A stretch of 64,000 nt of DNA from Cytophagaceae bacterium ABcell3. Its GTDB lineage: Bacteria > Bacteroidota > Bacteroidia > Cytophagales > Cytophagaceae. Below, in pieces: positions 2,016 through 40,262 of the stretch. The translations under genes were made by a program, and so were the position numbers. The number at the start of each line of letters is the position of its first letter. Positions within the stretch are counted from its first letter, which is position 1. Location of the stretch: assembly GCA_030913385.1 (NCBI GenBank), contig CP133159.1, forward strand, positions 3,494,584 through 3,558,583. Reading direction: 5' to 3'. The notes beneath the pieces are model-generated. The model was not told the DNA's origin, ran no database searches, and saw only the letters and a list, made by a program, of their open reading frames with translations.

Positions 2016-3290
2016 GGCTCTATGTGGAATACTGTGGGTAATTGAATTTCAATTTAGAGGAAATAAAGTAAATCATGTTGATAAAATTTGTAATATTCCG
2101 ATATCCACGAGCTCTTCTTTTAGCTAGTTGTATTTTGCTGTTAATCCCTTCCATGACACCATTGGCAATCTGGGACTCGACATAATTGGTAATTCCTTGC
2201 CAGTGGGACTTTATTGTGTTTACAAACTTCTTGAAGGCATACAAGCCTTCCTCTTCAACAAGGTCACACCAGTAAGCCAAGAAAGCAGAGCCCTCTTCTT
2301 TTGTTTTAAACTCCCAAAAGCTCTGAAATAAGGTCTTTAACCGATAAGCCTTCCCAATAGTTGGTAACAGTTCAATAAGTACCTGCCGGTCCTGCTTCTG
2401 TTTAGCGCTAAGTTTGTGTGTGGACTTTAATAGCGTGTATTTGTGTCCTTTAAGTATTGAGTGTTCTCGGACTTCTCGCTTACGTACATCGTCCATAGCT
2501 TCATTAAGCAGTTTGACTACATGAAATTTATCAAATGTTACCGAGGTGTTAGGAAAATGTTCGAGCATGCCTGCGATAAAACCTGTAGACATATCAATGC
2601 ATGCGTCGGTAATTGACAGATGTTCAACACCCTTTGCTTTTAAATGGTCTTTAATTCTTCCGATAGTGTGCCGATCCTTGCCTGGAGTAACATGAATCAC
2701 ACGGCGAGTAGCCAAATCTGCTGCTACGGTCACATAATCATGTCCTTTTCTTACAGAAGTCTCATCAATACCCAATTGGGTCACCGAGCTTTGATCATCT
2801 GCCCGATAGGCAATTTGTATCCAGTAGTTAAATATATTCCATATGCGCTGTGGGTACTCATTCACTAAATCAGCTGCTTTGTTCACGGGCATCTCTCGCT
2901 CAATCAAAGCCATGCTAAAAGCCTCAAACAACAAAGTAAAACCACTTCCTTTTCTAGCCCACGGCACTTCCACGGTTTTTACCTTTCCATCCGTTGTTTT
3001 GATTCGAGGGACTTTGCAATGAAGATAACATTCATGTTCAAAAAAATTGAGGTGACGCCAAGTCCTATATTGAGTATCATGAACTTTACTTTCTGGTTCA
3101 AATACGAAACCACGCTCAAAGCTAATGGTTATATGAAGTTCTTGTTTACCATTGGATGCTTCCTGAAACCTAACATCGGTTACCGACCAAGGCTTTGTTA
3201 ACTGCAAAGCCAATTGAAATATTTCGATACTGTTCATTTTGTAAAAATAACTACATTATATCACCTTTCCACAGTAAATCATATAGACCC
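2016..3290 (-). mobile_element. ISL3-family insertion sequence with intact ends
   Basis: A complete 1275-bp element. The left end begins GGCTCTATGTGG and the right end, read inward on the other strand, begins GGGTCTATATGA; about 17 of the first 22 positions match, including TACTGTGG. Both sides carry the identical 8-bp sequence AAAAATAA (2008-2015 and 3291-3298), the target-duplication length known for ISL3. The single transposase gene is intact and its stop codon lies inside the left inverted repeat. Perfect duplication plus an open gene points to a recent insertion. Confidence 0.93.
2020..3237 (-). CDS. ISL3 family transposase
   Basis: A 405-residue DDE transposase. The first acidic residue lies in LGIDETSVRKG (~residue 156), the second in the segment ITDACIDMSTGF (~210), and the glutamate in the C-terminal GVMEGINSKIQ segment (~365), which is the ISL3 arrangement (DDE_Tnp_ISL3). 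A short N-terminal region precedes it where longer members carry a zinc finger and helix-turn-helix. The frame is uninterrupted and fills the space between the inverted repeats, so the enzyme should be functional. Confidence 0.93.
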   Translation of the reverse strand: MNSIEIFQLALQLTKPWSVTDVRFQEASNGKQELHITISFERGFVFEPESKVHDTQYRTWRHLNFFEHECYLHCKVPRIKTTDGKVKTVEVPWARKGSGFTLLFEAFSMALIEREMPVNKAADLVNEYPQRIWNIFNYWIQIAYRADDQSSVTQLGIDETSVRKGHDYVTVAADLATRRVIHVTPGKDRHTIGRIKDHLKAKGVEHLSITDACIDMSTGFIAGMLEHFPNTSVTFDKFHVVKLLNEAMDDVRKREVREHSILKGHKYTLLKSTHKLSAKQKQDRQVLIELLPTIGKAYRLKTLFQSFWEFKTKEEGSAFLAYWCDLVEEEGLYAFKKFVNTIKSHWQGITNYVESQIANGVMEGINSKIQLAKRRARGYRNITNFINMIYFISSKLKFNYPQYST

Positions 3291-37607: not shown

Positions 37608-38873
37608 ATGAAAAAAGAACTTTTTATCACACTTTTACTATTTATCCTTTCACCAGCTGTCTTTGCCTCCAAGATTCTTATCCCCATGGACGATGGACAA
37701 AAAAACCATCTAAAGTCTTATGGTATATCTTACTGGGCGCTAACGCAGGGAGTGGATGTAAACTGGCTGCTTAACTATCGCGGGGGCAGCTTTATGTTCC
37801 ATCACAACGAAAAGCTCGAAAAGGAATGCTTGATCAGAGGGGTAAGTTATGAGGTAATCTCAGAGGCAAAAGCAACGAGTATTCTCGAAAAAATTTCCAT
37901 GCCCGATGTTAATATGGAAGTTGTAAAACTTGAAAAAGCCCCTAAAATTGCGGTTTACTCCCCAAAAACCAAACTCCCGTGGGACGATGCTGTAACATTG
38001 GTACTCACATATGCCGAAATTCCTTATGATATTGTATTTGACGACGAAGTGATGTATGGAGAGCTCCCTAAATATGACTGGCTACACTTGCACCATGAAG
38101 ATTTCACAGGCCAGTATGGCAAGTTTTACGCAATGTATAAAAACCAGCCTTGGTATATTAAACAACAAGAAGAATATGAAGCTGTAGCCCGCAAGCATGG
38201 CTTTGACAAAGTATCGCAACTAAAGCTTGGTGTCGTTAAGAAAATCAGGGATTTTTGTGCAGGCGGAGGTTTCCTTTTTGCGATGTGTTCTGCAACAGAT
38301 ACCTATGACATTGCCTTGGCTGCTCAAGACACTGATATTTGTGAAAGCATGTACGATGGGGACCCAGCAGATCCTGATGCACAAAGTAAACTGAACTTTG
38401 ATTATACATTTGCCTTTCAGGATTTCAAGCTGGTCACCAATCCTTACGAATACGAGTATTCCAATATAGACAACAACCCACATGAAAGAGGGGGAATTAA
38501 CGAAAAAAATGATTTTTTCAACTTGTTTGAGTTCTCCGCCAAATGGGATTTGATACCTTCTATGCTCACCCAAAACCATGAATCAACGATCAAAGGGTTT
38601 ATGGGACAAACCACAGCTTTTAAAAAGCACCTGATCAAACCAGAGGTATTGATATTGGGAGAAAATAAAGCTGCTGGGGAAGCAAAGTATATACATGGGA
38701 CCTACGGTAAAGGCACCTGGACGTTTTACGGAGGCCACGACCCAGAAGATTATCAACATTTTGTGGGAGAAGAACCTACAGACTTGAACCTTCACCCTAA
38801 TTCGCCCGGTTATCGCCTAATCTTAAATAATATTCTTTTCCCTGCTGCAAAAAAGAAAAAAAGGAAAACCTAG
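37608..38873 (+). CDS. Secreted protein annotated as 'asparagine synthetase B' in Bacteroidota; amidotransferase-like
   Basis: A 421-residue exported protein, signal peptide 1-20 (..SPAVFA). I recognise the Bacteroidota family by KILIPMDDGQKNHLKSYG and the central DWLHLHHEDFTGQYGKFY. The stretch FCAGGGFLFAMCSATDT resembles the nucleophile elbow of class I glutamine amidotransferase-like (ThuA/BPL_N) folds, and KGTWTFYGGHDPEDYQH the histidine region. It has none of the domains of true asparagine synthetase, so that label should not be taken literally. Enzymatic activity unknown. It ends in a Lys-rich tail. Confidence 0.7.
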   Translation: MKKELFITLLLFILSPAVFASKILIPMDDGQKNHLKSYGISYWALTQGVDVNWLLNYRGGSFMFHHNEKLEKECLIRGVSYEVISEAKATSILEKISMPDVNMEVVKLEKAPKIAVYSPKTKLPWDDAVTLVLTYAEIPYDIVFDDEVMYGELPKYDWLHLHHEDFTGQYGKFYAMYKNQPWYIKQQEEYEAVARKHGFDKVSQLKLGVVKKIRDFCAGGGFLFAMCSATDTYDIALAAQDTDICESMYDGDPADPDAQSKLNFDYTFAFQDFKLVTNPYEYEYSNIDNNPHERGGINEKNDFFNLFEFSAKWDLIPSMLTQNHESTIKGFMGQTTAFKKHLIKPEVLILGENKAAGEAKYIHGTYGKGTWTFYGGHDPEDYQHFVGEEPTDLNLHPNSPGYRLILNNILFPAAKKKKRKT

Positions 38874-38887
38874 TTGTTTTTGGGTAT

Positions 38888-40034
38888 TAAATACCAAACC
38901 TGACGATGAGATTGCTTCGTCGTCCCTCCTCGCAAAGACGTAGTGAGGTGATGCGAAAAAGAATGGCTACGGGAATTTTGAATTACAACAAAGACCATAA
39001 CTTGCAAAAAGTCAAAATAAAACCGTCATTGCGAGGCACAAGACAGTGCTTGGTAAAGTTCTTGGTTTGAAATTTAAAGCCTTTGGTGAAAAAAATGCCG
39101 CAGCAATCTGTCGGAGGTGATCTCCTAAGGTTGCTATCCCAAAATCCATTAATCTGCATGCCCCATGGGAAACCTTTGGCAGGTTATTTTAACTAGAAAA
39201 ACCAACAACATAGCTGTATCCCCGCACCTGTTGCGGGGTCTGTTGAAGTAAAGCAGGATGTAAATTGCCAAATATTAAACTGTGTCAGAGAATGACAGAT
39301 CCCTCGTTCCTCCATACGCCGTCAGGTCTTGTGGATGCTGACGGGTATTACCTGATGAAACAACGTAACCTGACCCATTCTCCACTTTTACGGACAATGC
39401 TTTACTCTTCACTTAGCCATGCCGATAAAAAACCGGCACTACATTCATGCGTCGCATAATCTTCGTCGTTACCTCCTCGCAAAGACGTGACAGGGCGATA
39501 TAACAGAGAATGACTACGGGGAATTTTGACATTAAACAAAGATTATAATTTGCAGAAAGTCAAAATCAAACCGTCATTGCGAGGCACAAGACAGTGCTTG
39601 GTAAAGTTCTTGGTTTGAAATTTAAAGTCTTTGGTGTCTTATGAAAAAATGCCGCGGCAATCTGTTAGGGGTAAGCTGAGTTGGTTGATTTGTAGAGTGT
39701 TAATATTAGACCTGACGATGAGATTGCTTCGTCGTTACCTCCTCGCAATGACGGGGGATTGAAGCACTAAAATAATACCATAGCTGTATCCCCGCACCTG
39801 TTGCGGGGTCTGTTGGAGTAAAGCAGGTTACAATTTCCAAATATTAAAATGTGTCAGAGAATGACAGATCCCTCGTTCCTCCATACGCCGTCAGGTCTTG
39901 TGGGCGCTGACGGGTATTTCCTGATAAACCAACCGTAACCTATGACTTAGCCATGCCGATAAAAAATCGGCACTACATTCATGCGTCGCATAATCTTCGT
40001 CGTTCCTCCTTGCAAAGACGTGGTGGGGTGAGTG
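38888..40034. repeat. Imperfect tandem duplication of a ~550-bp non-coding unit
   Basis: Two copies with an offset of 548-570 bp. For example AACCGTCATTGCGAGGCACA starts at 39021 and 39569, and CATAGCTGTATCCCCGCACC at 39209 and 39779. Each unit contains hairpins: CCCCGCA/TGCGGGG (39220-39238 and 39790-39808), CCGTCAG/CTGACGG, and GCCGATAAAAAACCGGC-type stems. The phrase GACGATGAGATTGCTTCGTCG recurs (about 38902 and 39714). Stop codons occur in all frames apart from short open stretches. Copies differ by small indels and substitutions. Confidence 0.85.
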
Positions 40035-40262
40035 GTAATAATGAGTGTTAAATATCAAACTTGGTTTTGCCCGTCAGCCCTTTAGAGCTGACGGCGTAAT
40101 TTTTTCAGGATTTTACTCTTAACGTAGATTAAGCCGATAAAAAATCGGCTCTACTTCTAAAAATATCTTTTAGCCTTGAGAGAATCAGCCGGTAGGCAAT
40201 CGGCTCTACATAACTCTTGACGACTTGCGAGACACATCATATTATCGTACCATCACATCATC
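40035..40262. other. Hairpin-rich tail of the repeat region
   Basis: Contains the stem CCGTCAGC / GCTGACGG (40071-40094) followed by T6, plus two GCCGATAAAAAATCGGC-like stems near 40131-40205. No gene. The first stem could terminate plus-strand transcription. Confidence 0.6.

Follow-up and report, generated by a model that had tools for sequence, protein, structure and literature searches.

Two groups of short palindromic repeats are relevant to the locus studied here. GTAG repeats are paired with RAYT transposases, forming units called REPtrons, and CGTC repeats "apparently lack a dedicated transposase" (Di Nocera, De Gregorio, Rocco 2013, PMC3733652). In the accessible passages of that survey, transposase genes beside CGTC repeats were monitored and none was found, Bradyrhizobium is given as CGTC-positive without a partner, dRS3 of Neisseria is filed as CGTC-1, and GIY-YIG is not mentioned. 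A CGTC repetitive extragenic palindrome (REP) is described there as having a CGTC, TGTC or CCTC tag, a stem of 8-9 bp starting with AT, a loop of 4-5 and a CCA tail, and as occurring mostly in opposite-orientation pairs.

Within the part of the literature covered by searches on GIY-YIG with RAYT (including PMC9465073), on natural transformation in N. meningitidis, or on repeat sequences, nothing on the repeats described below was found. One paper on repetitive extragenic palindromes names, in its accessible part, both RAYT and GIY-YIG genes without linking them, and in the same partial literature no paper was found that links GIY-YIG genes to REP elements or dRS3.

The closest precedent would be the Ssn family, reportedly described by Chenal, Veyrier and colleagues in about 2025 as site-specific single-strand GIY-YIG nucleases that go with NTS repeats in Neisseria. 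These NTS repeats are said to resemble dRS3, and an influence on transformation is ascribed to the nuclease with its repeats; if so, the pairing of GIY-YIG proteins with repeats would already be known in that genus. This system shares with the present one a small GIY-YIG protein, intact catalytic residues and abundant paired repeats, and seems to differ from it in that here we find arrays in Bacteroidota, mixing with RAYT repeats, an inverted bracket around the gene, and a hairpin class that follows the nuclease clade.

A mosaic array between two convergent genes

The window, which is the whole stretch of 64,000 nucleotides of Cytophagaceae bacterium ABcell3 DNA analysed here, contains a non-coding mosaic array of about 1.3 kb (38888-40209) that fills the 1389-bp junction of two convergent genes ending at 38873 (+ strand) and 40263 (- strand); we take the latter to resemble MiaE. 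An earlier note, made from the sequence of this DNA, had described a tandem non-coding duplication of units of about 550 bp, and this description holds: the array consists of two units at offsets of 534-570 bp plus a partial third, and an ORF scan of the window revealed no ORF of at least 80 aa inside it. The three best repeated pairs are 38971-39088 and 39519-39636 (offset 548, 92% identity), 39263-39364 and 39832-39933 (offset 569, 93%), and 39411-39470 and 39945-40004 (offset 534, 98%). The remaining repeated segments are less similar (62-96%), and partial copies continue to 40209.

The array is a patchwork of at least four palindrome families, A to D. Family A has the layout CGTC-ATTGC-...-GCAAT-CT(G/C) and occurs in opposite-orientation pairs with the tags outward; its tag CGTCATTGCGAGG has 178 copies in the genome, as compared with 0 for the pattern read backwards. 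Family B is CCCCGCACCTGTTGCGGGG, represented in the window by the hairpin CCCCGCA-CCTGT-TGCGGGG; its stem, CCCCGCAN5TGCGGGG, is found 88 times vs 0 for the reversed pattern, its tag is TGTC in the commonest genome form and GTAT in the window, and the stem lacks an AT start. Family C, CCGTCAGN{4,16}CTGACGG, has 16 genome copies vs 2 for the reversed pattern, and family D, GTAGNGCCGAT, with the layout GTAG-NGCCGAT-TTTTT-ATCGGCN, has 63 vs 0. The elements of the array are as follows.

38888..40209, unstranded: whole mosaic array between the convergent genes (by repeat comparison; missing from the same junction in relatives)
38899..38940, - strand: family A right-type element (GATTGCTTCGTCG..CTCGCAAAGACG), degenerate tag
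39023..39110, + strand: family A left-type element (CCGTCATTGCGAGGC ... GCCGCAGCAATCTG); A tag 178 times in the genome
39220..39238, + strand: family B hairpin CCCCGCA-CCTGT-TGCGGGG; matches the hairpin of the array that holds the GIY-YIG genes L057/L058
39316..39345, + strand: family C hairpin CCGTCAG..CTGACGG; 16 genome sites, control 2
39414..39442, - strand: family D hairpin, degenerate; 93% to the D array at the Y1 gene
39460..39487, - strand: family A right-type variant (TCTTCGTCG..CTCGCAAAGACG)
39571..39754, unstranded: 184-bp A pair, left-type plus right-type inverted, tags outward; 14-bp perfect inverted ends CCGTCATTGCGAGG / CCTCGCAATGACGG
39790..39808, + strand: family B hairpin; fold z -4.8
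39885..39914, + strand: family C hairpin; fold z -3.5
39950..39976, - strand: family D hairpin GTAG-TGCCGAT-TTTTT-ATCGGCA; fold z -5.4; 26 bases identical to the copies flanking the Y1 gene of L035
39994..40021, - strand: family A right-type variant
40068..40100, - strand: family C hairpin, opposite sense; fold z -4.7
40126..40154, - strand: family D hairpin GTAG-AGCCGAT-TTTTT-ATCGGCT; fold z -4.5
40181..40209, - strand: family D hairpin, diverged; fold z -2.4

Comparison with the CGTC REPs of the 2013 survey, as defined in its accessible passages, revealed that family A shares the CGTC tag, the ATTGC..GCAAT stem, a C-T tail and the inverted pairing, seen in the pair at 39571-39754 and in many A pairs of other arrays, and that it differs by a stem of 5 bp, a long loop and a CTG or CTC tail. 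Family B differs by its 7-bp stem without AT, loop of 5 and CTG tail. Since A and B depart from the described stem and tail, we do not file them as members of the CGTC REPs. The 184-bp A pair resembles a MITE in its perfect inverted ends and its lack of coding capacity; unlike a MITE, it came with neither a visible target duplication nor a transposase with matching ends, and its link is to a GIY-YIG nuclease.

The hairpin stems proposed in the earlier note are borne out for three of the families. Relative to dinucleotide shuffles, folding is better for six segments of families B, C and D (z of -4.8 for B, -3.5 and -4.7 for C, and -5.4, -4.5 and -2.4 for D), and two family A segments fold no better than their shuffles (z -0.45 and -0.73). 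The stems also show paired changes: between two D copies of the window the stem-foot pair is T..A at 39950-39976 and A..T at 40126-40154. Comparison of the whole array with the 5.1-Mb genome gave 329 partial matches at E <= 0.001, and the matches listed concentrate near 2.05-2.33, 2.80 and 4.04-4.10 Mb. According to the earlier note, its reading would fail if the units were confined to this site, lacked compensatory changes and were not transcribed; the units recur, and paired changes occur both here and at the related loci considered below.

Families A, B and D keep a fixed relative orientation elsewhere in the genome. In 18 own-genome stretches, used out of 20 chosen for containing repeat matches, 63 of 63 B hairpins and 38 of 39 D hairpins lie in line with A, and from this fixed polarity of A, B and D the mosaic seems to multiply partly as a composite. 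The stretch L052 (1160411-1164831) holds a regular series of ten B hairpins, spaced about 490 bp apart, with no GIY-YIG gene among them.

In L249, L251, L252 and L253, which are four genomes of a single genus within the same family, this convergent gene pair is separated by 44-47 bp, as compared with 1389 bp here; the distance is 13 bp in L269 and 129 bp in L256. Four more relative loci have the second gene nearby in another orientation, and in the remaining ones it was not found in flanks of up to 1.5 kb. No match to the array was detected in 28 relative loci with flanks of the same maximum length. Given the short junction in relatives, the array is most simply explained as a gain in this lineage. 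Comparison by eye with the junctions of four relatives, whose sequences have diverged, revealed no target duplication.

Candidate partner genes in the same genome

The earlier note had proposed that mosaic palindromes of this kind are mobilised by a REP-type transposase. This proposal stands for family D, and families A and B are linked to GIY-YIG genes instead. A search for a RAYT-like Y1 gene was successful: the genome has six Y1 genes, one of which, at 1048507, sits between four and eight D hairpins. Its product scored 73.3 bits (1.8e-20) with NF047646, the NCBIfam model of REP-associated tyrosine transposases, whose cut-off is 80. The D hairpins are most likely GTAG repeats of a RAYT-like Y1 transposase; they share with REPtrons the GTAG at the hairpin foot, the high copy number and the flanking position, and differ in that the Y1 protein falls under the model cut-off and in that D copies are mixed with A, B and C. 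The density of GTAG was tried as a positive control at RAYT loci, where the bare tetramer was barely raised (5.86/kb within 250 bp vs 4.38/kb at 500-1500 bp), so that density is no usable test. Other Y1 genes of the set lie in surroundings of their own: that of L031 (3228422-3231766) in an array of units of about 250 bp with the palindrome CGCCCCTAACGGGGC, that of L034 between CTGTAGCTTGAAGCTACAG-type palindromes, and those of L033 and L036 between inverted repeat pairs.

Seven GIY-YIG genes are present in the genome, five of them small, and three of these five lie inside repeat arrays. The gene at 2184661-2184882 sits within an A array, and the genes at 3277401 and 3279912 (the L057/L058 array) within a B array with a period of about 199 bp. 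The other two small genes (L059 and L060) adjoin tRNA genes, and no motif of the search set was found within 1.5 kb of the genes for the two long GIY-YIG proteins (597 and 494 aa). About 250 kb separate the window array from the closest GIY-YIG gene. By sequence, the closest solved structures are UPF0213 / YhbQ-like GIY-YIG proteins (PDB 1zg2, E 1e-8; 1ywl, 2e-4), a match that names neither a repeat partner nor a function. These positions, taken with the comparisons described in the next section, suggest that family A represents the GTC-tagged hairpins of small stand-alone GIY-YIG nucleases, and that family B probably does likewise. The larger part of the array is tied to small GIY-YIG nuclease genes, a partner absent from the earlier note.

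At L058 an ORF (2280-3219, also present at L057), presumably coding for an IS3-type transposase-like protein, is placed at the B array or within it, with one GIY-YIG copy on either side. No partner gene was identified for family C, of which one full and one degenerate copy occur near the tRNA-linked GIY-YIG gene of L059.

Small GIY-YIG genes and tagged hairpins in other bacteria

The generality of the link was examined at 80 loci, the best 80 of 496 confirmed, which were found by protein only, without use of the repeat. They fall in 19 named phyla, lean to close relatives of the query and include many metagenome bins, so that single phylum names may be wrong. GTCATT reached 5.25/kb within 250 bp of the gene (66 of the 80 loci), as compared with 0.57/kb at 5-10 kb; three control hexamers stayed near background, and the enriched 8-mers were mostly repeat sequence. 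Control flanks (28 RAYT loci, out of 30, and 7 tRNA-linked GIY-YIG loci) gave no enrichment. Among further GIY-YIG loci from a sample of phyla, 18 of 29 after tRNA-linked and truncated loci were dropped, 15 of 18 had the motif within 250 bp.

Of the 80 loci, 74 have GTCAT[TC] within 300 bp, and 60 have it on both sides. The bare motif is common, since stemless GTCAT[TC] occurs at 1.19/kb at 1.5-10 kb and lies within 250 bp of 12 of the 28 RAYT loci; the value of 74 by itself thus overstates the link, and the stem is needed in the count. When a GTCAT-tagged hairpin with a stem of at least 5 pairs was required, 69 of the 80 loci had one within 300 bp (4.37/kb vs 0.73/kb in distal ORF-free DNA), and such a stem begins at 72% of 290 near sites vs 15% of 922 distal sites. 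The copies on the two sides are also mostly inverted to each other: the + strand carries the nearest upstream GTCAT[TC] in 55 of 65 cases (p 1e-8), and the - strand the nearest downstream one in 54 of 69 (p 3e-6). Ten loci were inspected by eye, nine of which had first seemed to lack a hairpin class, and most show palindromes with altered tags, which stand outside these counts.

In the related loci, elements were picked by spacing, without selection on pairing. Inner stem pairs were kept at 56-82% near the GIY-YIG gene (39 distinct elements) vs 27-39% at a distance from it, and several pair types occur at each inner stem position. Together with the paired D change, these values bear out in part the earlier claim that stems are kept while spacers drift. 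The GIY-YIG residues themselves are intact, with Y19, G21, R29 and N86 conserved in 82 of 82 proteins and E67 in 81 of 82. Elements with 8-bp stems at many of the 80 loci fit the CGTC REPs of PMC3733652, as described in its accessible passages, in their CGTC or TGTC tag, AT start and CCA tail; they differ in that a GIY-YIG nuclease clade lies beside the repeats, as compared with no transposase in those passages. Bradyrhizobium contributes two loci with GIY-YIG genes (L129 and L148) to these best 80 of 496, and at L129 three GTCATTCCGG hairpins occur within 300 bp.

Two single loci may be mentioned here. At L075 the repeat stands directly before the gene, and the GIY-YIG reading frame runs upstream through it (peptide CHSESLDEESTKT). 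The GIY-YIG element of L085 is absent from sister genomes; a clean insertion was considered and rejected, as its ends fall in another repeat.

Treating PF01541 as one family proved misleading, because half of a census of small GIY-YIG genes forms a mostly tRNA-adjacent clade, and clades were therefore separated before counting. The census comprised 94 genes from 31 of the 61 Bacteroidota genomes searched (34 from loci already defined and 60 from the top rows of a longer list), leaving out UvrC-sized matches, rows further down and additional copies from a single tandem cluster. It splits into two halves, in one of which 40 of 47 genes have a tRNA gene no more than 700 bp away, as compared with 0 of 47 in the other. 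In the non-tRNA half, 23 members of a clade of 28 genes (SH-aLRT 99) have a tagged stem within 500 bp, compared with 10 of 47 tRNA-linked genes (p 3e-7); of the other 19 genes of that half, 7 have one. The L057 and L058 genes belong to the clade of 28 yet score no GTCAT hairpin, because B repeats carry a drifted tag. The tRNA-linked clade includes L059 and L060 of the same genome as well as L073, L076, L078, L079, L086, L087 and L090; some of its members stand beside tandem tRNA copies, such as the three tRNA-Asn genes at L059. In one cluster (G053:C34:6991-9748) a GIY-YIG gene is repeated about eight times.

Hairpins at the 80 loci fall into class I (short stem, 42 loci) and class II (long stem, 28). 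On a nuclease tree of 80 rows, obtained from 82 after dropping L118 and L122, whose ORFs run into the next gene, 12 rows had no hairpin class. Among the 68 labelled rows, hairpin class changes 6 times, as compared with a mean of 21.2 and a minimum of 15 in 300 shuffles, on a tree that is weakly supported, with stars on 4 of 77 inner branches. When classes were shuffled within phyla the figures were 5 changes vs a mean of 13.2 and a minimum of 8; the phylum label itself changes 34 times. L061 groups with proteins having GTCATTGCGAG repeats, which are those of our family A, and L058 falls in a mainly class II part beside L098, whose flank hairpin resembles the second hairpin of the B array. These data indicate that hairpin class follows nuclease clade across phyla, which fits co-inheritance. 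Altogether, the sequence comparisons make this GIY-YIG nuclease clade a strong candidate partner of CGTC-type repeats, and we infer that the nuclease may be what moves them.

Origin and meaning of the composite array

We consider it likely that the locus is a non-autonomous, BIME-like mosaic array in which most palindrome families have their partner enzyme gene elsewhere in the genome, A and B being linked to GIY-YIG genes and D to a RAYT-like gene. A hairpin would form on single-stranded DNA, the nuclease would nick at or near the GTC tag, and repair or recombination could then copy the unit to new places; unequal exchange may have produced the tandem copies of about 550 bp. No host function need be assumed for the array. 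More tentatively, and with rather less confidence, it is possible that a GIY-YIG gene and its inverted GTC-AT hairpins make up an autonomous mobile unit, a "GIY-YIG REPtron", present in about 20 phyla, of which CGTC-type palindromes, including A and B, would be non-autonomous offspring. If this were true, palindromes could spread without a tyrosine HUH or DDE transposase.

An alternative that we regard as unlikely, though still to be weighed seriously, is that the repeats are spread by host replication and recombination, the GIY-YIG gene being a passenger or a homing-type element for which the hairpin is a target and not a product. Fixed polarity and tandem copies of about 550 bp fit ordinary duplication, the L085 gene is missing in sister genomes with its boundary in a repeat, and most of the own-genome arrays examined have no nuclease gene, three of the five small genes being in arrays as compared with 329 partial matches. 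Against this, hairpin class follows nuclease clade both across and within phyla, and inverted hairpins flank the gene on both sides at a fixed closeness; a passenger would explain the co-inheritance only if each clade were strictly specific.

That selection maintains the repeats as sites for DNA uptake, gyrase or nucleoid proteins is very improbable. Their high copy number and clustering would be in agreement with such a role, as would the effect that Ssn is said to have on Neisseria transformation, but the presence of dense arrays in few regions and their absence at the junction of relatives favour expansion. Least credible of all is a structured RNA, which the earlier note had also suggested, or a bidirectional terminator of the two convergent genes: the position between 3' ends and the good folding of B, C and D hairpins (folded as DNA) would suit it, but no Rfam family reached the gathering score in the window, relatives do without the array at the same junction, and the mosaic recurs at many sites.

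The reading as a non-autonomous array with GIY-YIG and RAYT partners bears on more than this genome. CGTC-type palindromes are widespread, and the 2013 survey names no enzyme for them in its accessible passages (PMC3733652). A clade-matched nuclease makes this enzyme question testable with one small protein and short oligonucleotides, and in the window itself the RAYT and GIY-YIG repeat systems, which are unrelated, are seen to build composite arrays jointly.
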